DNA of 64,000 nt. Origin: Buddleja alternifolia. Lineage: Eukaryota > Streptophyta > Magnoliopsida > Lamiales > Scrophulariaceae. Position 1 is the first letter of the stretch. Every line of letters begins with the position of its first letter. Positions 28,326-56,294 of the stretch are shown here, in pieces. The stretch covers positions 9,706,046 through 9,770,045 of the forward strand of contig CM033393.1 of the NCBI GenBank assembly GCA_019426215.1. Direction: 5' to 3'. Both the position numbers and the translations under genes were made by a program. The notes under the pieces were generated by a model. That model saw only the letters and a list, made by a program, of their open reading frames with translations. It searched no databases and had not been told where the DNA came from.

Positions 28326-31300
28326 CTAACATTTATCAATCCATCTGAACCTAAAACTTGGAAAAAGAATATCCATCTTAATGTAAGATTTTGGAGCCTC
28401 GTTTATTCTAATCAAAGTGAAAAACTTATCATCATAACCCATATTTGCCAAATAGTCTCGGCCATGTTCCCTTCTCGGTAGATCTGCGAAAACCGAATAT
28501 CCATTTTGCCTTGCATATTCCTTATTCGTTGGAGAATGTTTTGCAAATTCCAACAACCGGGAGCAGCCTTTGTTATCAAATGCAACACCACCATTGCATC
28601 TAATTCGACCCACACTTTAGTATATCCGTTATTGTAACAAAGTTCCAACCCCTTACAAACACGAAAGAGCTCAGCATAAGTATTCGTAGCTATCTCGATA
28701 TAATCAGCAAAAGCAAAAACCAGCGACCCCGTATGATCCCGAACAATACCACCCGCACCCGCTTCACCAGGATTTCCTCTTGAGGCCCCGTATGTATTCA
28801 ACTTAACCAACCTATCGATGGAGGTAACCACTGGACCCTAACCGAAATCAGTTCCACCGGCCGTCCCCTTTTTATGTTCAAGCATTCTGCCAACCTATCA
28901 TCTTCCTTAAAGTTTTGTGAGGTGAGTAACCCAGTTTTATGAAGGAGTCGGATATATTGTTCCACTCTCATGCGAACCTTAAGCTCGCTAAATTGTGAGT
29001 TATCATGCTTAGCCTTATTCCGTTCTATACAAATGAACCAAGTGATCAATATTGGCAAGAGTGTCCTAACACTTCTGTTACCAACCCCAATTCTCCAAGA
29101 ATTCCACCAAATGTGCAAGTTATTCGTATCAGGTAGAGTGAAATTACACAAATTTGCATAGAAAGCACCAATATTATAGGCACTAATACTTTTAAAGAAT
29201 AAATGTGAAAGCCAGTCAATCTCTCCATTTCTACAACAATAACATTTTGAAGCCAATGAAAAACCATTTCTTTTCATATTAGTATCAAATGGCAGCTAGT
29301 TATGAAATAATCTCCATGCAAAAATAGTCATAGAGGGCTTGAGTTGTTTACTCCATATATCTCGAAAAAGATCACTAACCTCAGCAGCTTCACGAAGTAT
29401 ATTCCATGCAGATTTCATGGTGAATTTGCCACACTTTGAAAGCTTCCAGATGGCTTTATCTTGTGGGGTATTGTTGATATGAATCTCCATAATTCGATTC
29501 ACCGTGTCTGGCAACAGAAACTGGCTAAGCTTGTGTAAATCCCATTTACCTCTTTGCCAATAATCCGATACAAGTGCCGACTCATTGTGCGGGTTCGCCA
29601 CCACCTGACAGAGAGGCCCTTCTCCTAACCAATTATCGAACCAAAAAGAGGCACTCCCTTCTCCTAAGGTCCAAATAATATTCGGCTCAGCAATAATTCT
29701 AATTCTTCCCATTCGTTTCCAAACCTTGAAGGATGTGCATTTCACCGGTGCCACTACAGGATGATTTTTCTCGCAATACTTTTTAATCATAAAACGAGCC
29801 CAAATCGACTTACCTTCTCTTAATTTCCACCACAATTTCACACCAAACGCCTCCACCATGTCACCAAGGCTTCTCACTCCAAGACCTCCTTCAATTTGAG
29901 GATAACAAACCCTATCTCAAGAAGTCCAATGAATTTTTTTAACATTACCATTTGAACCTCAGAAAAAACGATTAAACAATCGCTCAAGACGTTGAGTAAC
30001 ATTTTTTGGTGGTTCTATCATCTGCATAATGTATATTGGCATAGAAAAAAGAACACTTTTAATGAGTGTTAACCGCCCTCCAATGTGTCAGAATCTACTT
30101 TTCCCAACCTCCGATTCGCTTGACAATTTTTTCGATAATATGCTCGAATACTGATGCCCTCTTATGACCTTTGTATAAAGGTGCACCTAAATAAATAAAA
30201 GGAAGGTCCTCCTTCTCAAAGCCCGTGATCTGTTTAATAATTCGTATTCGAGTTCGAGATGCTGTTTTGCAAAAAATAAAAGTCGACTTATCTTTATTGA
30301 TCAATTGCCCCGAAACCTTCTCATAATATGTAATGAAATTTAATAACCGAGAAATCACTCCTTTAGTTCCTTTTGAAAAAATAATAATATCATCTGCATA
30401 CGCGAGATGACTCACTGTAAAACCTCCACCGGTGTCATATTGCATCATTGGGTTTTCATTACAAAGTCTATCCAATCCCCTAGACAAAAATTCAGCTGCA
30501 ATAACAAAGAGAGCAGGCGAAAGTGAGTCTCCCTGACGTAGTCCTCGAGTTGATTTAAAGAATCCCTCACTTGCTCCATTAATTATCACCGAAAACCAGC
30601 AATTTTCAACTGCATGACGAACCCACAAAATCCATATAGACGGAAATCCCAATTTTTCAAGAACCGAATAAAGAAAGGTCCATTGAACCCTGTCATAAGC
30701 CTTTGCCATATCTAGCTTGAGCATTATATTCCCACCACCTTTCTTTTGCTCAATTTCATGACACAACTCTTGTGCCAATAAAATATTATCAATAATGTTA
30801 CGTCCTTTTATAAATCCCGTCTGACAAGGAGAAATTATCTTGTTCATTATCTCTGATAACCTATTCGCCATGATCTTTGTGATCACTTTATTACTTACAT
30901 TGCAAAGACTAATGGGCCGATATTCTTTCCACGATTGGGGTGATTCAACCTTAGGAATTAAGGATATTGTAGTGGACGTATACCCCCTAGGCAATGGTTT
31001 TCCAGAAAAAAAATTCAAGAATCGCCTCCATCAAGTCCTCCTTAATAATGTACCAGCATTTTTGATAGAACATGGATGTAAAACCGTCTGGGCCAGCCAC
31101 ACTATCGGGATTTATACTCCAAACTGCCGTCTTGACTTCCTCTACATCAGGCGTCACACACAGAGCTTGTCTTTCTCTTTTCGATAGCATGTTAGGTATG
31201 CAAGAGAGGTCCGGCTCTTCCAACCTCGGGTTAGGTCCTGTGAAGACTTGTTCAAAATAGTTTGCACCCGATTTTTGAATATCATCCGGGTTGACAAGTT

Positions 31301-32430
31301 CACGGCCATTTTCCATTATGCGATGTATCCGTCCATTGCTCCGCTTCCTCTTCACCCATGCATGATAAAACTTGGTATTCCTTTCTCCATCCTTGAGCCA
31401 ACTGCAAGCCGCTTTTTGTCTCCAAAACTCTTCCACGATAGCTAATTTCTGAGCAAAAACCGCCGCTGCTCTATTCATAGCACATAAGTTCTTATCATTG
31501 GGCTGGACGTCATATTCATGTTCACATTTTCTAGCTCCATCCTCTGCAATTTTAACCGCCTCAAACACATTTCCGAAAATCTCTCGGTTCCATGTTTTCA
31601 AAGCTCTTTTCAAACGAACTAGCTTCCTGTGGAACTTTTCCAAACCTCGACATAATATAGGTTCGTTCCAAGAGGTATTCACCATATCCATAAAATTGTC
31701 ATGTCTAATCCACACATTCAAGAACCGAAAAGAAGAAGGTCTAGAATGTGCATCATCTTTTACCGATAAAAGAAGCGGATTACGATCCGAAAATTTGGAC
31801 CGAGCCAAATGCCTTACCATAAAAGACGGGAACAATTCTTGCAGGTCCTTCGTATAAAAACACGATCTAATCGTTCAAACACTCCCCTTTTTGCATACCA
31901 TGTAAACGGAGTGCCATCATAGCCCGCATCAATGAGATCGCAATCCAAAGTCATATTTCCAAAATCTTCCATGGAGCCACGTTTCGGGGCTGCTCCACCC
32001 CTTTTTTTGTTCCCATGCAAAATAATATTAAAGTCACCACCCACTAGCCAAGGTTCATTAGTAGGGGTTACGTCACGAAGACCATCCCATAGAAATTTCC
32101 TCTCCTCCCTAGTACACTTGGCATGTATCCAAGAGCAGTAAATAGGCCTCCGTAACAGCGTAGATCGAATCCGAACATGCAAAAATTGATCATGGTTAAC
32201 TAAAACATCCACTTCATAATCATCATTAAAAAAGAACCAATATGATTGTTACTATTGCTAATTATATTACTAAAGCCAAACTCACGAATCATCATAAACT
32301 TATCAAGAATAATTTTGGGTTCAATGATAACAAGAAATTTTAATGCATACCTCCGACAAAGTCGCCGTACTCTAGAAACCGACTTCTTGTTCCCTATACC
32401 TCTCATATTCCAAATAAGGGCATTCATCAT
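28326..32430 (-). pseudogene. L1 ORF2 (endonuclease, reverse transcriptase, RNase H)
   Basis: ORF2 starts at 32430 overlapping the ORF1 stop. Endonuclease blocks are LIWNMRGIG and IIEPK (32430-32200), then LVGGDFN, GTPFTWYAKR and RLDRVF (32212-31814). The catalytic SDH motif is SDRNPLL (near 31,790), so the essential histidine is arginine. RT (31018-30095) has LDMAKAYDRVQW, GLRQGDSLSPALF and YADDIIIF and appears intact locally. The zf-RVT region (29877-28798) follows. RNase H (28831-28412) starts KLNTYGASRGNPG, with the first catalytic Asp replaced by Tyr. The pieces use changing frames, with at least six frameshifts, one at an eight-A run near 31,006. The encoded protein would nick DNA and prime reverse transcription in the nucleus; this copy cannot. 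Confidence 0.9.
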
Positions 32431-34155
32431 CTAAACTTTTTAGGGACAGTAGCTTTGGTACTTCTTGTCGTTCGTCTCAGAGATTCTACTTTCGATTGTT
32501 TCCCATCTAACGAGGCTGCCCGTCTATGTTTTCTTGACTTAACTTCATTCCAAGATTCATCACTAGTCTCGTTATCACCAGAATTTATAAGAATCCCATC
32601 ATTATCCGGCGGAAGTAAATCATGCCCGAGAGCGAGACGCTGTAAATTCACATCTTCATCATCATCCGTTTCCTCCTGACTCATTCGTGACTCTCGAATT
32701 TGGGAACTTTCCCTCAATACCATATCTGTGGGTTTGCTTCCTCTTCTAATGATTATATCCGTATCTTGAGACATAAAACTCGACATCTCACTATCTTCTA
32801 GATTACTCAATCCGGCTTCATGATCTCGTTTAGTAAGTCCTTTACCCGTTTTAGCAATAGTTCTGTCAATGGAGCTGCTTATACATGTCTCTTGAACAAT
32901 ATTATCCTGTTCTTGATTAGTAGCCGCTGATTTAATAACTTTTGTGGGTTCTTGATTTAATCTATGCGTTCCTTGCACCAAAGAAAGTATTCCCTGACCA
33001 TCACCTGTAATTACTTTGTCACTTGGCTCAAGAATTATCATTTTTGAAAAACCAATCTTATTAGCATCTGTTTGACCCATATTTTCAACATTTTTATGAA
33101 CATTTGTTGTGTTATCCCTCGATGGTTCTCCCTCTCCTCTAACAGGTAATAAGACACGCCCCTCCCTTCCTACTGGTTCATTTTATCTTGAGCTTGGTTT
33201 CTAGCAAGAATATAAGTAGGCTCCACCATCCTGACCATAGGTCGTTTTCCTCTGTTTTTATCCAACTTCACACGTAAGTCACCCGTTTCTCGACTTTCTT
33301 GATCTTCCCTCTGTTCCTTGGTATGTTCTTCATCTTCTGGATTATTTTTTTGAGCAAAGCACGCAACCACCGAGTGCCCTCTATGACGATAGATACGACA
33401 GTATTCCGGTATTCCCTCATATTGAACTTTGAAAAATCTTATTTTACCATCAATTTGTATTGGAACATCTTGATGTAACTTTTTTAATACATTGACTTCC
33501 ACACACATTCTCGCAACGACAGGGTTATCAATTTCCGTTGTTGCCTCATCCAACTTCAATGGTTTCCCAATCAAACTGGCAACATGATAAAGGAACTGAC
33601 GATGAAACCAATGAGGACGCAGCCCAAATACTTTAATCCATATTGGCATTATGGGTGATTCCTCAGTCGGATTAAAATCCGAAGTCCACTTCAACACACG
33701 CATAGGGAATCCATCAAAATACCAAGTTTGTTTCATCCAAACCCTAGCATAGTCGTTTGGATCAAACAAACGAATCCATACATGTTTATTATCTAAAACC
33801 CCAATTTTAAAACCACTATTGAGCCCCAACGCAGCAAATTTGGCACGAAGGCGCGTCATCGTCGGGTATCCATGTGAGAATTTTCCAACCAAATAATACT
33901 GATATGGAGCAGCAATAAAATCATCCTCCTCTTTCGATAAGAAAATCGTTTTTCGGCCATTAAGAATTGTTGATGTTCCAATCACCTTCGTGTCTACGCC
34001 GTGCACGAACGCCTTTTCGCGACACGAGCGGCTAGTTCCGTAGGGCGGAGATTGCCCTTCAGTTTCTCTGCATAGGATGACGTTTGATTTTCCGATGTAC
34101 TTTTATTGACAACAGCGGTCGGACCCTGGTGGTCTGCCACTGGCGACGGTTCCAT
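32427..34155 (-). pseudogene. L1 ORF1 (DUF4283-type RNA-binding protein)
   Basis: The best start is the ATG at 34155 (MEPSPVADHQG), which continues as SYAEKLKGNLRP before a frameshift near 34,010. The main piece (34006-33170) holds the DUF4283-like domain (YLVGKFSHGYPTMTRLRAKF, WIRLFDPNDYARVW) and then a CCHC knuckle. The knuckle reads YCRIYRHRGHSVVAC, so its second cysteine is lost. The acidic/serine-rich C-terminal part follows in another frame at 33080-32427, ending PKKFR. The stop overlaps the ORF2 start as ATGATGA. ORF1 would bind the element RNA. The missing cysteine and two frameshifts make it inactive. Confidence 0.85.
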
Positions 34156-45144: not shown

Positions 45145-46715
45145 ATGGTGAGAACAAGAGGTGGAGGTGCAGTGGGTAGTTCGTCCAGGGTTGCAAACCC
45201 CATGCCCGAGGGTACACTGGGGGCGGAGGGTGAGCAGTTGGATCCCAGGTTTGATAACCTGCCAGTGCATAGCATTTACAGACAGTTAACTACCTGGACG
45301 ATTCACAAAGATCATCAGATTATTGGGTTTTCTAAGGCGGTCACTGGTGTTATCCGGTTCCATATGCTAGAGCCATTTTACGAGGAGCCACAGAGAGTAA
45401 TGGTACAGTGGGTTCAGGATTTTTACGCCCACGTGACAGAAATGTACTAGAGGGAGGAGTACTTGAATATGAACCACATTCGGGTTCTTGATATTGTGGT
45501 CAACATATCACCCAAGCAGATATTGAGCAATACTAGACTGACATACCGGATGAGTGTGAGTATACTGCCATGCTCGGTGATTCTAGGCATAATTAGGTGG
45601 ATTTGGAGGCATTTCGGGAGGCTATTACAGTAGAGGGCTCTGAGTGGTTAGGTGGGGGTAGTCATCTACACCAAGGGGATCTGACACCTGTGGCTGGGTT
45701 TTAACTATGAATAGGTCAGAAGTGACGAGGGATATGTTAGTGTTATGACTTCAAATGCCATAAAGAAGATAGAGTTATAGGGCATTAAATTGTAACTAAA
45801 CACTCTTATATTAATAAAAGGCTTTTTCATGTGGTTTCTTTTAGGCATTTGTAAGGTTTAGTAAACAACGTAAAGTCCTTGATAGTAAGGAACTAGAGGA
45901 GTTTGATCTTTAGTATCTAAAATGGTTCGCAAGTCGAAGTGAGTATTGACTAGACATCATTACTAGATACAGACTTGTATGATATAAGTTTTGGTAGGGA
46001 AGTGCCAGTCGAACACTATGAATATGTTAGTGGGAACTTATGTCATAGGCACCTCAATTAGACTGATGTGCTCGAACATGGGTCGCACCAGTTTTGTCAC
46101 ATGGATTTTCACTCAATGACAGTCAATGACAAAACTGATAAGTTGTGATACGTACGCGTGTACTTTAGACCTGAGGAATCACGTTGAAGATGTGCTTGTG
46201 ACATCAAGTCTCTCATTAGAGTAGTTAGATCTAATTCACCCGTTGGTGGGGTCGACCTCGAAGTGCGGCTTGATGGGCACGTAGCAATCTTAACTGATTA
46301 GCAAAATGTTATTTATTCTCTCATAAGTGAATGAGCTAAATATCCTATGCAGTCATGAACGAGTGAGGTCAAAGGCTTTGGCCAAAGCATTGGAGATACT
46401 CATGTTGGACATGAAAGTATACTCAATGACCTCGATTCATTATGAGCTGAGCATATGGTCAACTTCTGTGAGTTGACTAAACCATGACTCTTACTTGATT
46501 GGGATATATGAATAAAGGGTTTATACTCGTACGGTATTCACAGCGTGAAAGGATTGGAATGATCCTATTCATTCGTTCTCAATTGGGATACGATGTGGGC
46601 CATGGGACCGACTAGGTGTTACCCACATCCTTTTGATTTTCTCCCAATTGCCTTTTGAGACGAACCTAAAGAGTCGCGTTTAAAGGAATTGCAAAGGAAA
46701 AATTATAGAATAAGA

Positions 46716-48122
46716 TGATAAGAGTCATTTTTACGTGTTTTAAGCCCTTGCTTTTATGTTTTAGATTCATTTATCGCTTGATTTATGCCGCATATGTGTA
46801 TAATATATGTGCTTATTGAGTAAAGGTGGAAAATCATTGCAATCAACGTAAAATGCACAAAAACAGAGTATTTCAGTATATTTTGAAATCGAATTTGAGG
46901 ACGTTTTCTTCTATAAAGTTGTAGAACTCCATCTTGGTGTCACGTGGAAACTTGAATCATCCAAATCCGAGGTCCGTGGAGAAAGTTATGAAGAAAAAAC
47001 AATTGCTGCGCTGAAAAACAAGAAAACGGTTAAGACTTCGCACTGTGGCGCCTAGGCGCCACCTTATCCGCGCCTAGGCGCCAGTCAACTTCTTCCCCAA
47101 GCCACTTAGGCCACCTGGACCGCGCCTAGGCGCCATTTGGGTCACGCCTGGGCGCCGATACAGCGGTTTTGAAGGTATAAAAGCCAAAAATGAAAGGAAA
47201 AAGGGGGGGTTCAAATTCTAAGTGAATTTTTGGGATTTCTTGGGATTGGGACCTCACTTTTCATCACTTTAGAAGAGCAAAAGAGAAGGGAAAGAAGAGA
47301 TTCAAGCCTCCAATTAAAGATTCGATCATCAATGCAGCATAGGGAGTTTCTTAGCTTTAGATTCATCTTTGTCGATGAACATGGATCTTATGCTTAGCTT
47401 TTTCCTTATGCATTTTATGAGCTAAATTGTTGAACTAGGGCCATGAGAAGGCCATGTTGTTAGTATTGTGACAATAAGATCGTTTTCCATTTCAATTCAT
47501 CTATTGCTATGTGTTGTGATTTTGTGGTTGAATGCCTTACATATGCTTGATCACCATGTGTTTGATATCATGCCTTGGTGAATTATTCGAGAGAAAGTTG
47601 ACTTAGGGTGCAATAATTTCACAACATCACCGACCAAATAGGAATTGCCCTAGACATAGGTAAAGATTCCTGGGTGAAGTCGTTCGATTTGAATCGAGAA
47701 AGCTCTAGTTCTTTAATGCATGCTTAGTGGTTAGATTTTCGGGTAGACATACTTAGGAAACCACCAATTAAGTATAGGAGTCTATCACAAGACATCGGTT
47801 ATTCTTTACCTTAGGATCTTTCACCATAGCAATGTATGTCTAATGAATTGGTAATGATCTTAGGATAGCAATACGCAACATGTGCCCGAACATGAGCCTT
47901 AGTCACCTCTTCACCTTGGAAGTTTAACCTCTCTTTACTTTCACTTTAGCTTATTTTACTTTCCTTTTTAGTTAAATCTCTAATTTACTTCCTTTTGTTA
48001 TCGAAAATCATAAAATAAAGTTCAAGTCTCCGTGGTTCGACAACCCGGACTTATTGTCCATTTCTATCACTACACACGACTAGTGCACTTGCTACCAAAG
48101 GACGTTAGCTTCGAGCGTGTCA
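46716..48122 (+). repeat. 5' LTR of element D
   Basis: 1,407 bp, TG...CA, with TATAAAA at 47176-47182 and clustered GGCGCC palindromes just upstream. It retains two neighbouring palindrome units where the 3' LTR has one. Confidence 0.93.
47047..47156. repeat. Cluster of GGCGCCTAGGCGCC palindromes in the D LTR
   Basis: A perfect 14-bp palindrome at 47047-47060, 12-bp versions GCGCCTAGGCGC at 47070-47081 and 47122-47133, and a decayed one at 47145-47156. The cluster ends 20 bp before the TATA box. Confidence 0.9.
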
Positions 48123-48128
48123 AGGTTT

Positions 48129-48146
48129 TGGCGCCGTTGCCGGGGA
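48129..48146 (+). other. Primer-binding site of element D (Asp tRNA)
   Basis: TGGCGCCGTTGCCGGGGA begins six bases after the 5' LTR and is the perfect 18-nt complement of the 3' end, with CCA, of plant Asp tRNA, as in Athila elements. Confidence 0.93.
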
Positions 48147-48203
48147 TCTAACCCGGGTCACCCGCGTGACAGTCGTGAATACTTACCACTATACTACAAC
48201 GAC
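48129..48203 (-). tRNA. Complete tRNA-Asp(GTC)-like sequence including CCA, fused to the PBS
   Basis: The reverse complement of this 75-nt segment is a whole Asp tRNA: 5' acceptor GTCGTTG, D-arm TAGTATAGTGGTAAGTA, anticodon loop CTGTCAC with GTC, T-arm CCGGGTTAGATCCCCGG, 3' acceptor CAACGGC, discriminator G and CCA. The acceptor stem pairs fully (one G-U). Compared with the plant tRNA-Asp sequence as I remember it, I count three changes, all C to A on the tRNA strand. Two spoil the anticodon stem (CACGA against GCGGG) and one alters the T-loop TTCGA to TTAGA, which also damages the Pol III B box. It is therefore unlikely to be a working tRNA gene. Because plant tRNA genes do not encode CCA, the source was probably a mature primer tRNA copied end to end. 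Confidence 0.85.
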
Positions 48204-49696
48204 ATGTAGTAGACGAGTTTTGCTTTGGAGAATTTTTCATTGCTGATTTGAGCTTGGAGCGGATTTCATGTGATTAAGGGTTGCTTTTTACCACCCTTGT
48301 TGTAAGTACTCTCGTTTATCCCCTTTTGAGTGTGTATGATTGAGTCAACATTGAGGGTAATGTTGAGATTAAGTTTGGGGGGGGGGGGGGTTACGAGTAG
48401 TGCTTATTGATTTTATGTGTTGTGTGATTTTGTTTTTAGCTCAAGTTTGAGAGAATCATTGTTATTGCATGTATTTTGTGCTAAATTTTGAGAAAAATCA
48501 AGCATAATTTTTTTTATTTTAGGATGGTTAGCTTGCCAATTGGTGCAATGAGACTTGAGAACTCGAGACAATGGCATGATATCTTGTATATTTCTATTAA
48601 TGGTCTAAAATGAAAATTACACATCTTGATTATGCTCATTTCAACCTTAGTTGAGAGTCAATCTTCCTTAGATGATACACGTTGCACATAAGTCAAAGGT
48701 AGAGGGATTGAAAAGGGTTCCCCATCTCGAGACATGTAAGGAGCACCCCCGGATATATGAACCTAGATTTTTCATGTTGTTTTGATATGATTAGTTGCTT
48801 ATGGGTCCATAATTGTGTTAAATGAATGAATGATTGAGATGAGATTGGTATGACCTCAAAAATCCGGTCAGGCCAACGAGTATTGGAGGTCACCAAAGCA
48901 CCATTGCCTATATACTATACTTGTTGAGCTAATTTGAGCTTTGCTCAAGCCAATCGGGAATGAGTTGAATAAAAGACCTCGTTCTATTTCGTGGCCTTTG
49001 CCACCCGGGTGATTAAGTTCGTAGGAGTGTCTTAACACTTAGCACCCTAAAACCCTCTGGTTTGGGAGTTGTTGACCTAAAGCCCGTTACATGGGTGGCA
49101 AAGAAGATCTAAAGGGGTAGAACATTGCACGAGGCCATATGTTGATTATAAGCTTAAATCGTTTTGAAGTGTGAAATGTCAATGTAAAGTGAATGGAAGT
49201 GAGCACAATTTAACCTTAAGGTTGCCTATGATTCGATGAACTTTATGATCTATCGAAAGTTGGTAGATATGGGGAATGTTTCCGAGCATGGTAGGGATGG
49301 CTTTCGATCATAATGTCCTAGATCTTATCCCACTACACCCTTTGGAAATTGGTTCGATTCTATGTGTTGAATGAGCATTGTCTTCATTTGTGTACATATT
49401 GTTGAGCTTTCTTGTCACTTGATTAGTGTCATTGCATCATAGTTCTTATTTCGAGTTGTAGTGGTTGGTTTGAGCTAAACATCCTTCGATTTTGTGGGTA
49501 TATCGTATGCAAACCCTCACGAGACTATAACTCGTCCTTTGAGGTAACTTAAGGGTTTAAAGGCTTGTTGCACACGCTAAGTGCAACCGGTTACTCCACG
49601 AAAACGAGTTAGTTAGTAGTTTTCTTTTCGTTTCTCCCTTTTTTGATGATGTTTCCATATCCTAGAATTCTTATTGCTCGAGGTCGAGCAATTGAT
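48204..49696 (+). other. Non-coding internal region of element D
   Basis: No ORF of note on either strand. The first ~150 bp are leader; from about 48,345 the sequence matches the Athila-type 3' region (GGGTAATGTTGAGATTAAGT followed by 14 G at 48377-48390). Confidence 0.75.
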
Positions 49697-49711
49697 AACT
49701 GGGAGGGGGGT
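49697..49711 (+). other. Polypurine tract of element D
   Basis: AACTGGGAGGGGGGT lies directly before the 3' LTR start TGATAAGAG at 49712. Confidence 0.88.
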
Positions 49712-51098
49712 TGATAAGAGTCATTTTTACGTGTTTCTAAGCCCTTATGTTTATGTTTTAGATTCATTTATCACTTGATTTATGCCACATATGCGTATAA
49801 TCTATGTGCTTATTGAGTAAAGGTGGAAAATCACGGCAATCGACATAAAGTGCACAAAAATACAGTATTTCAGTATGTTTTGAAATAGAATTTGAGGAAG
49901 TTTTCTTCTATAACGTTGTAGATATCCGTCTTGGCGTCACGTGGCAACTTGAATCATCCAAATCCGAGGTCCGTGGAGAAAGTTATGAAGAAAACACAAT
50001 TGCTGCGCTGAAAAACAAGAAAACGGTTAAGACTTCGTACTGTGGCGCCTAGGCGCCAGTCAACTTCTTCCCCAAGCCACTTAGGCCACCTGGACCGCTC
50101 CTAGGCGCCATTTGGGTCACGCCTGGGTGCCGATACAGCGGTTTTGAAGGTATAAAGGCCAAAAATGAAAGGAAAAAGGGAGGGTTCCAATTCTAAGTGA
50201 ATTTTGGGGATTTCTTGGGATTGGGACCTCACTTTTCATCACTTTAGAAGAGCAAAAGAGAAGGGAAAGAAGAGATTCAAGCCTCCAATTAAAGATTCGA
50301 TCATCAATGCAACATAGGGAGTTTCTTAGCTTTAGATTCATCTTTGTCTATGAACATGGATCTTATGCTTAGCTTTTTCCTTATGCATTTTATGAGCTAA
50401 ATTGTTGAACTAGGGCCATGAGAAGGCCATGTTGTTAGTATTGTGACAATAAGATCGTTTTCCATTTCAATTCATATATTGCTATGTGTTGTGATTTTGT
50501 GGTTGAATGCCTTACATATGCTTGATCACCATGTGTTTGATATCATGCCTAGGTGAATTATTCGAGAGAAAGTTGACTTAGGGTACAATAATTTCACAAC
50601 ATCACCGACCAAATAGGAATTGCCCTAGACATAAGTAAAGATTCCCGGGTGAAGTCGTTCGATTTGAATCGAGAAAGCTCTAGTTCTTTAATGCATGCTT
50701 AGTGGTTAGATTTCCGGGTAGACATACTTAGGAAACCACCAATTAAGTATAGGAGTCTATCACGAGACATCGGTTATTCTTTACCTTAGGTGCTTTCACC
50801 ATAGCAATGTATGTCTAATGAATTGGTAATGATCTTAGGATAGCAATACGCAACATGTGCCCGAACATGAGCCTTAGTCACCTCTCCACCTTGGAAGTTT
50901 AATCTCTCTTTACTTTCGCTTTAGCTTATTTTACTTTCCTTTTTAGTTAAATCTCTAATTTACTTCCTTTTGTTATCGAAAATCATAAAATAAAATTCAA
51001 GTCTCCGTGGTTCGACAACCCGGACTTATTGTCCATTTTTATCACTACACGCGACTAGTGCACTTGCTACCAAAAGCACGTTTGCTTCTAGCGTGTCA
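49712..51098 (+). repeat. 3' LTR of element D
   Basis: 1,387 bp, matching the 5' LTR except for scattered changes and loss of 22 bp between two GCGCCTAGGCGCC units (near 50,060), the deletion expected from slippage between direct repeats. Confidence 0.93.
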
Positions 51099-53733
51099 TA
51101 AGACTTGAGAGATTTTTCGGTATTTGATATCGCAATTACTTAATTAATTAATCATTAGATAATTTTATTAATTAATTTAAGTTAATGTGTTAATTAATTT
51201 CTTTATGGAATTAATTATAGAGTTAACGTGGATTAATCAGTTATTTAATTAAATTATTTATTGGATAAATAATATTAATTAAATAATTAATTAAAATAAA
51301 ATCACAAAATTGGACTAAGCCCGAGGGCATAAGAAACGCCCAAATGGGCGTCCTTAATGCCTTAGTTTAGTTGGGTTAATTATTTCGTGTGTGGTATAAA
51401 TATACTAGTTAGTGAAAAATTAACCCTAGCCTCAAATAATTATCTTTCTCTCCAAGTTAAGACTTTCAAACTTCTCTCTCTCTCTCTAGCCGTCCTCAAG
51501 GAGAAGGAAAAGAAGATCTTTGCTTTCAATTCCGGCGTGGTGATTTAGAGGCAATGGTTGTTTCACTGTTCAGAAAGAGGATTAAAAAGCTGGTTCAGAA
51601 TTTCAATTACCCGAAGAAATGTACAATTTTCTCAAAACATGATTTGTATACACGAAATTAGAAATGAACCACCGTGGGATTTATTTTCCGCTTCGTTTTA
51701 TATGTAAAAACCCAACAGGATAGGGTTGTGTTGGTCTATGCCATCATGCAGCAGAGGAAGATTAATTTGTGGCTCTGATACACAAGGCTTTCATAGGTCA
51801 GATTGAAAAGTATGGGAAGGAGGAGGGGAAGAAGAGGAAGAGAAAGGCAAAGGCGAAGAAGGTGACGAAGAAGAAGACTCCGTTCATCTTCCCTTCTTTG
51901 ATTACAGCATTGTGTTAGACGGCTTACGTGCCAGAGTTTGAGGATGATGTTTCTGAGGAGTGTGGTGTTCCTATCAATTACTCCGATAAGAAGAAGGCAC
52001 CTATAGGGGAAAAGAAAGCAAAGGCTTCACAGGGTCAGAGTTCGAGATCAGTAGCTGCACCAGCACCGACTACTATGACTGATCTCAGGAGGAATGTGAA
52101 CCATCTACAAACCCACATGACTGCATTGGAGGACACTTTTCAGATGGGGATGTCGTTGAAGATGGCTAATTTTTAGCTGATAAGCCAGTACCAGAGGCAA
52201 CTAGCCTCAGAGACGGATTTATCTGCGAGGAGATCTATCAATGCCTATTCCCCTGTCCCGGAGTTCCATCGGCTGCCTGCCTCTACTACTACCCCCGGTG
52301 ATTACATGTTCGATGAGGATCACTTGGATGATGAGGAGAAGGATGATGATGATGATGAGGCTGATGAGGAGTGACATCCTAGATTTGTGTTATCTGTTTT
52401 ATTTTATTATGATGGATGTTAGTTTTTTTTTTTTATTAGTTTTTATGTTTTGTTATTTATTTCAGAGTTTATGGATATTATGCTATAGTTTTATTTTTTA
52501 TGTTGATTATGTTGGATATTTTGATGCTTGTTGAGTTTGTGATAAGTAGTAGTTATCTCTTAAATTACGGGAGTTGGAACGATATTGGAATAGGAGCACT
52601 TTCAGTGAACTTACGTAGAAAAACACGCATGAGGAATTTTGGTTTTCTTTTCAGCATCCTAATCGGTACTATTTTTCTTTTTCTTTTCTTATTTTCTTTA
52701 ATTTCCATTAGTTAGCCTGTGCAACATTGGGGACAATGTTGAAGTTAAGTTTGGGGGTGTTAGGAAAGTAGTAAAGAATGTATACTATATGTTTTAAATT
52801 AAGTTTGGGGGAGGAGTGTCGTTTTTGAAATTTTTGAGATTCATACTTTTATGGTGAAGAAGAATCGAGAATGAAAATGGAAAAAAAAAGGAAAAAAAGA
52901 TTAGTCCTTCCGATTGATGCATTGAAATTGATTAACTTGAAAAAATGGCATGATTTCTTAAATAATTTTGAATTTAATGCAACATATATATTTTGAAATT
53001 GCTTGTGGAGGCCCAAGATGAGATTTGATTTTCTTAGATGATTCACAATGCACATTAGTCGAGGGTAGAGGAGTTGAGAGGATAATCATCTTGAGACACT
53101 TATGGAATTTTTCCCGAAAATATTAACTTAGATTTCTCATAAGGTTATAAGTTGAATAGTTAATTTTGTATGCTAAACAATGAAGAAAAGAGGTTGAATT
53201 TTAATATGACCAAAAGTGGTCAGCTTAATATGTATTGGAGGTGAAAGTTTCATGCCTATATACTGTACTATTATGCTAATTTGAGCTAAGCTCAAGCCAA
53301 AAAGAAAGTTTAATTAAATAGTTGATCTTGTTTTGTTTCGTGGCATTTGACACTCTAGCGATTAAATCCTTAGGAGTGTCTCTACACTTAATGCCCTAAA
53401 ACTATCTAGATTGGGAGTCATTGATCTAAAGTTTATTACATGGGTGCCATAGAAATCCTAAGGGAATAAAACATTGCACTTGATCAAGCCTTAATGAATT
53501 TAAATGGAAAGTTTCATATGAATTTAAAGTTTGAATGCTTGAGTAATGAAATTTAAATGTTATGAGGTTTTCTATGATTCTTGTGCCTTGTGTTGGATCG
53601 AAAGTTGATAGATATGGGATTAATGTCCATAAATTGGTAAGGATGCCTCTCGACTATAATACCTTAGACTTATTTTCACCACATCCTTTGGAGTCTTTTC
53701 GAGTACTGGTGTCACATGAGCAAAAATTAATTG

Positions 53734-53761
<28 letters not shown>

Positions 53762-53764
<3 letters not shown>

Positions 53765-54327
53765 AATGATCCCACATCTGGAAAAAGAGGAAAATGAAAT
53801 AATTTATAAAGAGAACCCTAGGATTCAAGTCTAACAATGGATAACCATTTTGGGCCGTGGTTCAAATGCCCAACTCAAGGTTAAGCTCAGTGGGTTCGAT
53901 GGGATTTCTCTGGTTCAACGGGCTCGTGAGCCCGGGGCGTGACAAATGGTATCAGAATTGGGATTTTGGTGCTACAACATGAAATCTTGGTATCCGCTAT
54001 GAAGTTGCCCGAGGTTCTCGGATCCGCTATGAAGAATAGTCCGAGGCAAATCCGGTGGTAGCCTAGAGAGTCCCGATGCCTGACGACGGATCTTGGACTG
54101 AGTCACGCCGCTACGAGGACGTCGCTCCTCGATAGGGGGGTGATTGTAATGATCCCACATCGGGAAAAAGAGGAAAATGAAATAATTTATAAAGAGAACC
54201 CTAGGATTCAAGTGTAACAATGGATATCCATTTTGGGCCGTGGTTCAAATGCCCAACTCAAGGTTACGCTCAGTGGGTTCGATGAGATTTCTCTGGTCCA
54301 ACGGGCTCTTGAGCTCGGGGCATGACA
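53762..54327 (+). mobile_element. TRIM: 566-bp miniature LTR retrotransposon
   Basis: Two 183-bp terminal repeats, TGTAATGATCCCACATC to GGGGCGTGACA (53762-53944) and its copy (54145-54327), differ at roughly ten positions by eye. A PBS-like TGGTATCAGA (53947-53956) follows the first, and a PPT-like GATAGGGGGGTGAT precedes the second. TSD TATAT flanks the element in a (TA)n tract. The 200-bp interior has no ORF. These are the defining features of terminal-repeat retrotransposons in miniature, mobilised by other elements' proteins. Confidence 0.92.
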
Positions 54328-54507
54328 TATATATATATATAAATATATAATTTTGAGCTTTAAAGGTTGATTTTGTGCCATTGGTTCTTGTTAATTAAGT
54401 CGATGTGTATTGATTAGTTGGGTCTGAAATTTGTTAGATTTTGTGGGTGTATCATTTGCGAACCCTCACGAGACTATACTCGTCCTTTTTGGGTAACATA
54501 AAAGTTT

Positions 54508-54875
54508 GGGATTATTACAAATTACCCCCCTGTGTTAGTTTGAAAAAGATAAAAAAAACCTTCTGTTAAATCAATATGCTAAAACCTCATCTGTTAATGT
54601 AAACCATGCACATAACCCTTTTTTCCTTTAGATAATGATCAAAATGTAGTCCTTAAAACATCTCTATACTTTTGTTTTGTAGTGAATTTCAACCCTACAG
54701 ATAGTGCAAAGGTATAAGAATGTTTTAAAGGCTACATTTTGATCAATTTTCTAACGGGGAAAAGGGTTCCGTGCATGGTTTACATTAACAGAGGAGGGTT
54801 TTTGCATATTGATTTAACAGAGGGTTTTTTTTAGCATTTTCGAACTAACACAGGGAGGTAATTTGAAATAAGCCC
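54508..54875. mobile_element. Foldback MITE with 9-bp TSD (Mutator-like)
   Basis: The termini GGGATTATTACAAATTACC and the complement of GGTAATTTGAAATAAGCCC form an inverted repeat that runs through most of the 368 bp, meeting near 54,690. The flanks TAAAAGTTT (54499-54507) and TAAAGGTTT (54876-54884) are a 9-bp TSD with one mismatch, the length typical of Mutator superfamily elements. There is no coding capacity. Confidence 0.88.
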
Positions 54876-55034
54876 TAAAGGTTTAAAGGCTTATTGCACA
54901 TGCTAAGTGTAATCGTTTACTCCACAAAAGTGAGTTTATCCTTTTTGTTTTGATTTTTGTTTTTATCTCTCTATGATTGTTGTTCTGGATCTTATCATTG
55001 CTCGAGGACGATCATTGTTTAAGTTTGGGTGTGT

Positions 55035-56276: not shown

Positions 56277-56294
56277 TGGCGTCGTTGCTGGGGA
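56277..56294 (+). other. Degenerate Asp-tRNA PBS of array C
   Basis: TGGCGTCGTTGCTGGGGA differs from the D PBS by two C-to-T changes. The following bases (TTTGCTTCTT) do not continue into tRNA sequence, unlike D. Confidence 0.85.

Follow-up and report, generated by a model that had tools for sequence, protein, structure and literature searches.

Element D, a non-coding LTR retrotransposon in the 64,000-nt stretch of Buddleja alternifolia DNA analysed here (the window), carries the antisense of an entire tRNA-Asp in unbroken continuation of its primer-binding site (PBS). We put the probability at about 0.9 that D records a failed tRNA stop during reverse transcription, after which the copied tRNA end was rescued downstream. 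According to the accessible part of a published account (PMC13191261), m1A58 normally halts plus-strand strong-stop synthesis, copying of an unmodified primer proceeds as far as the 5′ end, and products must have stopped at 58, 55 or 54 to act as active templates; the full-length product is not an active template, so D would need an abnormal rescue.

In our model, plus-strand strong-stop DNA would have passed the modified A58 of the primer tRNA-Asp and run to the tRNA 5′ end. The normal second transfer would then have been blocked for this strand, because the 57 nt beyond the PBS would be unpaired. The strand’s 3′ end (...ACTACAACGAC) could have annealed to the minus strand at a GAC ~890 nt downstream of the PBS and been extended from there, yielding a cDNA that contains the full tRNA complement, lacks the leader from the PBS to the landing point and would have integrated normally with a 5-bp target-site duplication (TSD). 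We infer both this sequence of events and the absence or bypass of m1A58. Legible in the DNA itself are the anatomy of D, its single junction, its unextended sisters, the recurrence of over-extension and the integrated by-products at other loci.

Anatomy of element D

D lies between two TAAGA TSDs (46711–46715 and 51099–51103; all features of D listed here are on the plus strand), recognised from the flanking letters and from comparison with uninterrupted versions, at 34.5 and 40.3 kb, of the repeat into which it inserted. Because this target exists elsewhere without the insertion, D did not land beside a tRNA gene, and the contrary case named with the original prediction, insertion next to such a gene, does not apply. 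The 5′ LTR (46716–48122, TG..CA) is 94.7% identical (K2P 0.038) to the 3′ LTR (49712–51098, delimited by LTR–LTR comparison). A 6-nt spacer, AGGTTT (48123–48128), leads to an 18-nt tRNA-Asp PBS (48129–48146) whose exact letters occur 4607 times in the genome (reversed control 0). The PBS continues into the over-extension at 48147–48203, antisense to the remaining 57 nt of tRNA-Asp up to its mature 5′ end. The final GAC (48201–48203) belongs both to the tRNA 5′ end and to the leader of the sisters, and the join falls somewhere within these three bases. Then follow a non-coding internal region common to sister elements (48204–49711, from similarity to six of them) and, ahead of the 3′ LTR, a polypurine-tract-like stretch (49698–49711, by its letters). 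Within U5, the motif CTATCACTACACACGAC (48064–48080) resembles the antisense of the tRNA-Asp 5′ end, and the equivalent site is the U5 re-entry point in four other copies.

Two programs agree with the original prediction that the 75 nt after the spacer are the antisense of a full tRNA-Asp(GTC) with CCA. ARAGORN reports tRNA-Asp(gtc) on the minus strand of 48129–48203 as the only tRNA in the 64 kb, and the tRNA-model check proposed for this strand gave 44.1 bits against Rfam RF00005 (gathering score 29, E = 4.2e-06). The CCA alone is no evidence for a mature tRNA, because the PBS itself starts with TGG. The three predicted C-to-A differences on the tRNA strand are present at indices 28, 31 and 55, relative to the plant tRNA-Asp sequence used for comparison; six gene-like loci of this genome agree with that sequence (73/73 aligned letters at L072, 72/72 at each of L084–L087, 74/75 at L077). 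Two of the three lie in the anticodon stem, which has two non-standard pairs in the Rfam alignment. These differences fit the age of D (P = 0.17 for at least three in 75 nt, 0.095 for 57 nt) and 12 of 51 LTR CpG columns have decayed in one LTR, mutation counts and CpG decay being measures that cannot separate the date of tRNA acquisition from that of insertion. The related element C serves, as foreseen, as a control within the window: its unextended PBS (56277–56294, plus strand, two mismatches) leaves the tRNA after 18 nt and one matching T.

With two TG..CA LTRs, a 5-bp TSD, a tRNA PBS and a purine tract, D has the features of a non-autonomous LTR retrotransposon. The gag-pol coding region of an autonomous element is absent, and D is gene-less, as predicted: only two ORFs of at least 60 aa overlap it, one of 67 aa and one of 74 aa in the 3′ LTR, each on the minus strand. 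Its tRNA-Asp PBS is a pointer, only suggestive in an element with no coding domain, to the Athila/Tat (OTA) lineage. Elsewhere in the window, 52722–54936 holds a diverged relative of D’s internal non-coding region (67–86% identical in pieces), and 29296–34102 on the minus strand holds LINE-type remnants with RVT_1 and DUF4283, and zf-RVT just below the cut-off. Pfam searches of 10 of the 13 window ORFs of at least 180 aa found LINE-type domains in three, one just below its cut-off.

Sister elements and the deletion in D

The window corresponds to G000:C4:9706046-9770045 in its own 853.6-Mb assembly. A search of this assembly with the leader query 48123–48303, in which 40 of 728 candidates were scored, recovered D and 39 sisters. 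Sister matches mostly begin at query position 79 (range 71–81), at or beside the GAC of the tRNA end, and in 39/39 sister loci fetched it is leader, mostly ...ATTGTGAGTACAT, and not tRNA that stands before the junction site. A PBS, defined by at most four mismatches and a position within 1.3 kb of the site, is recognisable in 16 of the 39; the other 23 have none in the stretch read and are uninformative on PBS length. None of the 16 is extended, all ending at 18–19 nt (next base C in 14, the tRNA-matching T in L037 and L052), and their PBS-to-GAC distance is 780–900 nt (885–900 in 13). The 19-nt junction of D occurs once in the genome, as an exact match, with up to two mismatches allowed (reversed control, seven chance matches); by this measure the proposed search for further D copies with the 75-nt segment returned none.

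The stretch missing from D encodes an ORF of 209–210 aa in the two sisters read (L015, 9076–9708; L013, 293–922); these two copies and one window ORF had no Pfam match at E 1. The tRNA end probably landed ~890 nt downstream in the cycle concerned and took out the leader together with this ~210-aa ORF, so that the absence of the ORF from D is probably a result of the event. Over-extension and deletion together in the cycle that made D are the simplest reading, because there is a single junction, the sisters with a recognisable PBS are unextended and the genome holds no exact tRNA-less fusion of PBS and GAC. The homology at the join is short, at 3 nt, and on a loose score the join site comes only 20th out of ~900 windows in the L015 leader. 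Alternatively, the leader could have been deleted earlier and the tRNA over-extended in a later cycle. This two-step route is improbable: its intermediate, an element with the PBS joined to GACATGTAG without tRNA, could be unsampled or diverged, but no exact PBS-to-GAC fusion (gap 0–12 nt, no mismatches) exists in the genome, and the shared GAC coincides exactly with the tRNA end. Snap-back priming, suggested by a 7-bp inverted repeat where the tRNA ends (46/5000 controls), was also considered and was rejected, since most sisters have the same TGTAGTAG without tRNA.

The sisters also bear on the idea that the long complement is a selected, functional PBS, either an extreme primer over-extension sequence or a packaging aid. 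Full-length pairing is computed, for unmodified RNA, at −149.2 kcal/mol against −42.1 for 18 nt, and a short primer over-extension sequence is present in lentiviruses (PMC13191261, accessible part). Yet the family-wide conservation to be expected of such a sequence is absent from the 16 informative sisters, the 23 others of the 39 saying nothing on the matter; the junction was found once, the 28 events described below vary in end point or join, and the predicted fold of the antisense RNA is no stronger than that of shuffled sequences (z = −0.98). We consider a selected function highly unlikely, and the suggestion that the complement aids priming or packaging finds no support among these sisters; the 75 nt in D are most likely without a present role. 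The original prediction also held that a single replication cycle reverse transcribed the entire mature tRNA and that the copy was then fixed. The first part is supported, on sequence grounds, by the stop at the mature 5′ end, by a junction found only in D and by 27 further events, and the second, fixation in the lineage, is not supported, the 16 recognisable sister PBSs being unextended.

Over-extension and its outcomes across the genome

A 33-nt query composed of TGG and 30 nt of antisense tRNA-Asp, with at most three mismatches, has 57 matches in the genome and none when reversed; 30 became loci, and a further eight that begin like a PBS were retrieved as six stretches. By context, 32 matches stand behind LTR-end-like sequence and a spacer and 25 are gene-like. 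The latter start without TGG; a T-run follows the gene in 6/6 fetched, and 19 were judged by their letters alone. Among the LTR-context copies, 31 start with TGG and one (L075) with TAG. Twenty-nine of these copies were examined singly, and none of these fetched copies (0/29) has a Pol III T-run; the other three are further units of a tandem array. LTR pairs or TSDs are established only at D, L061, L073 and L081, the LTR context elsewhere being read from end and spacer letters and weakest at L089. The array itself (L091, G000:C7:8854420-8862643) consists of four units at a spacing of ~1.73 kb, and in every unit the PBS is extended to 35 nt. Fetched extended loci with an exact PBS number 21, or ~0.46% of 4607, a lower bound because older and shorter copies escape the search. 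Extended antisense tRNA had no match in the viral_contigs and genome_contigs collections. The 18-nt PBS alone occurs at four loci in viral_contigs, all GC-rich and by eye not plant-like, and these were set aside.

Counting L074 and L088 (98% alike downstream) as one event and the four array units as one, with end point or downstream sequence as the criterion, we obtain 28 distinct events including D. The extension measures 73–75 nt in 13, 71 nt in three, 65–67 nt in two, 56–60 nt in four, 43–46 nt in four, and 35 and 32 nt in one each, every end point being uncertain by the length of letters common to both sides. The mature tRNA 5′ end is thus the end point in 13/28 events (P ~1e-8 against a uniform distribution over 32–75).

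These copies allow two other origins to be weighed. First, tRNA sequence could have been captured at the DNA level after integration, a tRNA-Asp gene acting as donor to the PBS, with which it shares 15 nt, through break repair or gene conversion. Such genes are present in the genome and, with the PBS supplying TGG, the CCA is compatible with a gene donor; against this stand the 13 stops at the mature 5′ end and the downstream letters of these 13 events, which resemble none of six gene 5′ flanks (scores ≤12–16; gene-versus-gene mean 12.7). Moreover, L073 and L081 hold their tRNA copy within units bounded by perfect TSDs, so it was present at integration. Gene capture therefore seems very improbable. 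Second, a tRNA-derived retropseudogene or SINE might have inserted into the PBS. CCA-bearing tRNA retrocopies do exist, but all 29 singly examined copies lie directly behind the spacer and replace the PBS, a placement that independent insertions would not produce, and we give this origin next to no credence.

On the preferred reading, the extended loci look like integrated remains of the excluded full-length product. An A is the usual error of reverse transcriptase opposite m1A. A for T opposite A58 is found in 2/29 extended copies (L073 and L081), no significant excess over mismatches in general (P = 0.17). D itself shows no error at this position, which makes priming by an unmethylated tRNA equally likely in its case.

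Over-extended ends met several fates. First, they could land further along the leader, as in D and in L061 of the same family, where 43 nt are followed by TGACA, also present in the L039 leader 313 nt past its PBS; the downstream 3′ LTR of L061 is 90.8% identical over 1322 columns. Second, five loci (L063, L071, L082, L078 and L062) return to LTR sequence and then have a second PBS and leader. L063 and L071 re-enter at the U5 site ACGAC, and in L063 U5 tail and spacer, together 48 nt, separate the tRNA copy from the second PBS; re-entry lies 383 nt before the PBS in L082 and 916 nt in L078, and the first part of the source is unplaced in L062. Third, L073 and L081 are mini-elements composed of LTR, PBS, 75 nt and then 43 or 42 nt of U5 to the terminal CA, with perfect TSDs (AGGAC and TTGAT); having integrated as whole units, they place tRNA copying before integration. 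Finally, an inverted LTR stretch of ~400 nt or more lies behind the tRNA copy in L059, L075 and L079, forming large palindromes, and L064, by its letters, returns into tRNA sequence. Local BLAST among the fetched loci found no source for the sequence behind L060, L064–L068, L089, L090 and L093, of which L064 was placed by letters; the sources of the remaining events are unplaced or lie in other repeats.

By hand, 9/12 joins with a placed source share at least 3 nt (D, L061, L063, L064, L071, L073, L075, L079 and L081). The exceptions are L059 and L082, with no or about one nucleotide of homology, and L078, with 8 extra nt; L094, with only a 28-nt inverted match, was excluded. An earlier tally of 8/11 gave P = 5.6e-13, a value that overstates independence, four of the nine using the same U5 site. 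About 50 nt before the PBS (window 48064–48080 and sister LTR ends), U5 holds TACTACACACGAC or a variant of it, which apart from one additional base corresponds to the antisense of the tRNA-Asp 5′ end. None of 200 shuffles equals the motif of D; many other LTR ends do no better than shuffles, and the group with the ACAAAT spacer is without it. We suggest tentatively, and with rather less than even confidence, that tRNA-Asp-primed elements in this plant run through the tRNA stop at a rate that is low and steady, and that a recurrent escape is re-entry of U5 at this near-copy (4/28 events), giving duplicated PBSs and integrase-competent LTR–tRNA–U5 mini-elements. On its letters, the motif may possibly be a second contact for the primer’s 5′ end.

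Elements primed by initiator tRNA-Met were probably over-copied too, in a putative LTR context. For this primer, the extended antisense has 14 genome matches (reversed control 0), of which 10 start without TGG by their letters; four were fetched. L098 and L099 have identical letters and count as one event of 42 nt with a TGG start, preceded by letters resembling those before two Met-type PBSs in the window; L100 starts with TGG and extends ~55 nt by eye, and L101 was left unclassed. The exact 18-nt Met PBS occurs 92 times in the genome, and its rate is not comparable with that of tRNA-Asp.

Relation to known systems

Relative to the literature searched, what is new is the scale, with readable outcomes, in one genome. 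Among the matches listed, titles and opening lines of abstracts of openly accessible papers describe no full-length primer complement beside the PBS in plant elements. Copying beyond m1A58 is known from in vitro work and from cells whose methyltransferase is mutated, and the full-length product is listed as unusable (PMC13191261, accessible part). Here, 28 distinct integrated over-copying events are available for one primer, 13 of them reaching the tRNA 5′ end, with landing sites and some TSDs readable. It thereby becomes possible to test directly what happens to over-extended strong-stop DNA and how tRNA modification acts in plant retrotransposition, and one route to non-coding deletion derivatives comes into view. 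For annotation such tRNA copies are a pitfall, as they too score as tRNA genes.

Among plant elements, Helenus TRIMs are, like D, non-autonomous LTR elements containing tRNA sequence. As far as the accessible part of their description goes (PMC10886601), the tRNA-like part of Helenus is located in the LTR and lacks complementarity to the PBS, whereas that of D is antisense and continuous with the PBS; the window’s only tRNA call lies outside both LTRs of D. Plant Ty3/gypsy elements with a tRNA-Asp PBS (non-chromovirus OTA lineages) have the same PBS type, 5-bp TSD and LTR/purine-tract layout as D; the accessible part of that survey gives a tRNA-Asp PBS in 6% of elements and mentions no full-length complement (Neumann 2019, PMC6317226). 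Unlike those elements, D is non-coding, so no domain shows its lineage.

The closest parallels are retroviral. Over-extended HIV-1 strong-stop DNA and lentiviral primer over-extension are reportedly treated by Muthuswami (2002), a work cited in PMC7599994. In the over-extended plus-strand strong-stop DNA of HIV-1 (product P1), copying of the primer likewise runs beyond m1A58 as far as the 5′ end of the tRNA. In lentiviruses, the primer over-extension sequence downstream of the PBS is likewise complementary to more of the tRNA (PMC13191261, accessible part). In contrast to the lentiviral sequence, no conserved over-extension is seen in the sisters of D examined, and the copy in D is integrated genomic DNA in a plant, full length and joined elsewhere by microhomology.
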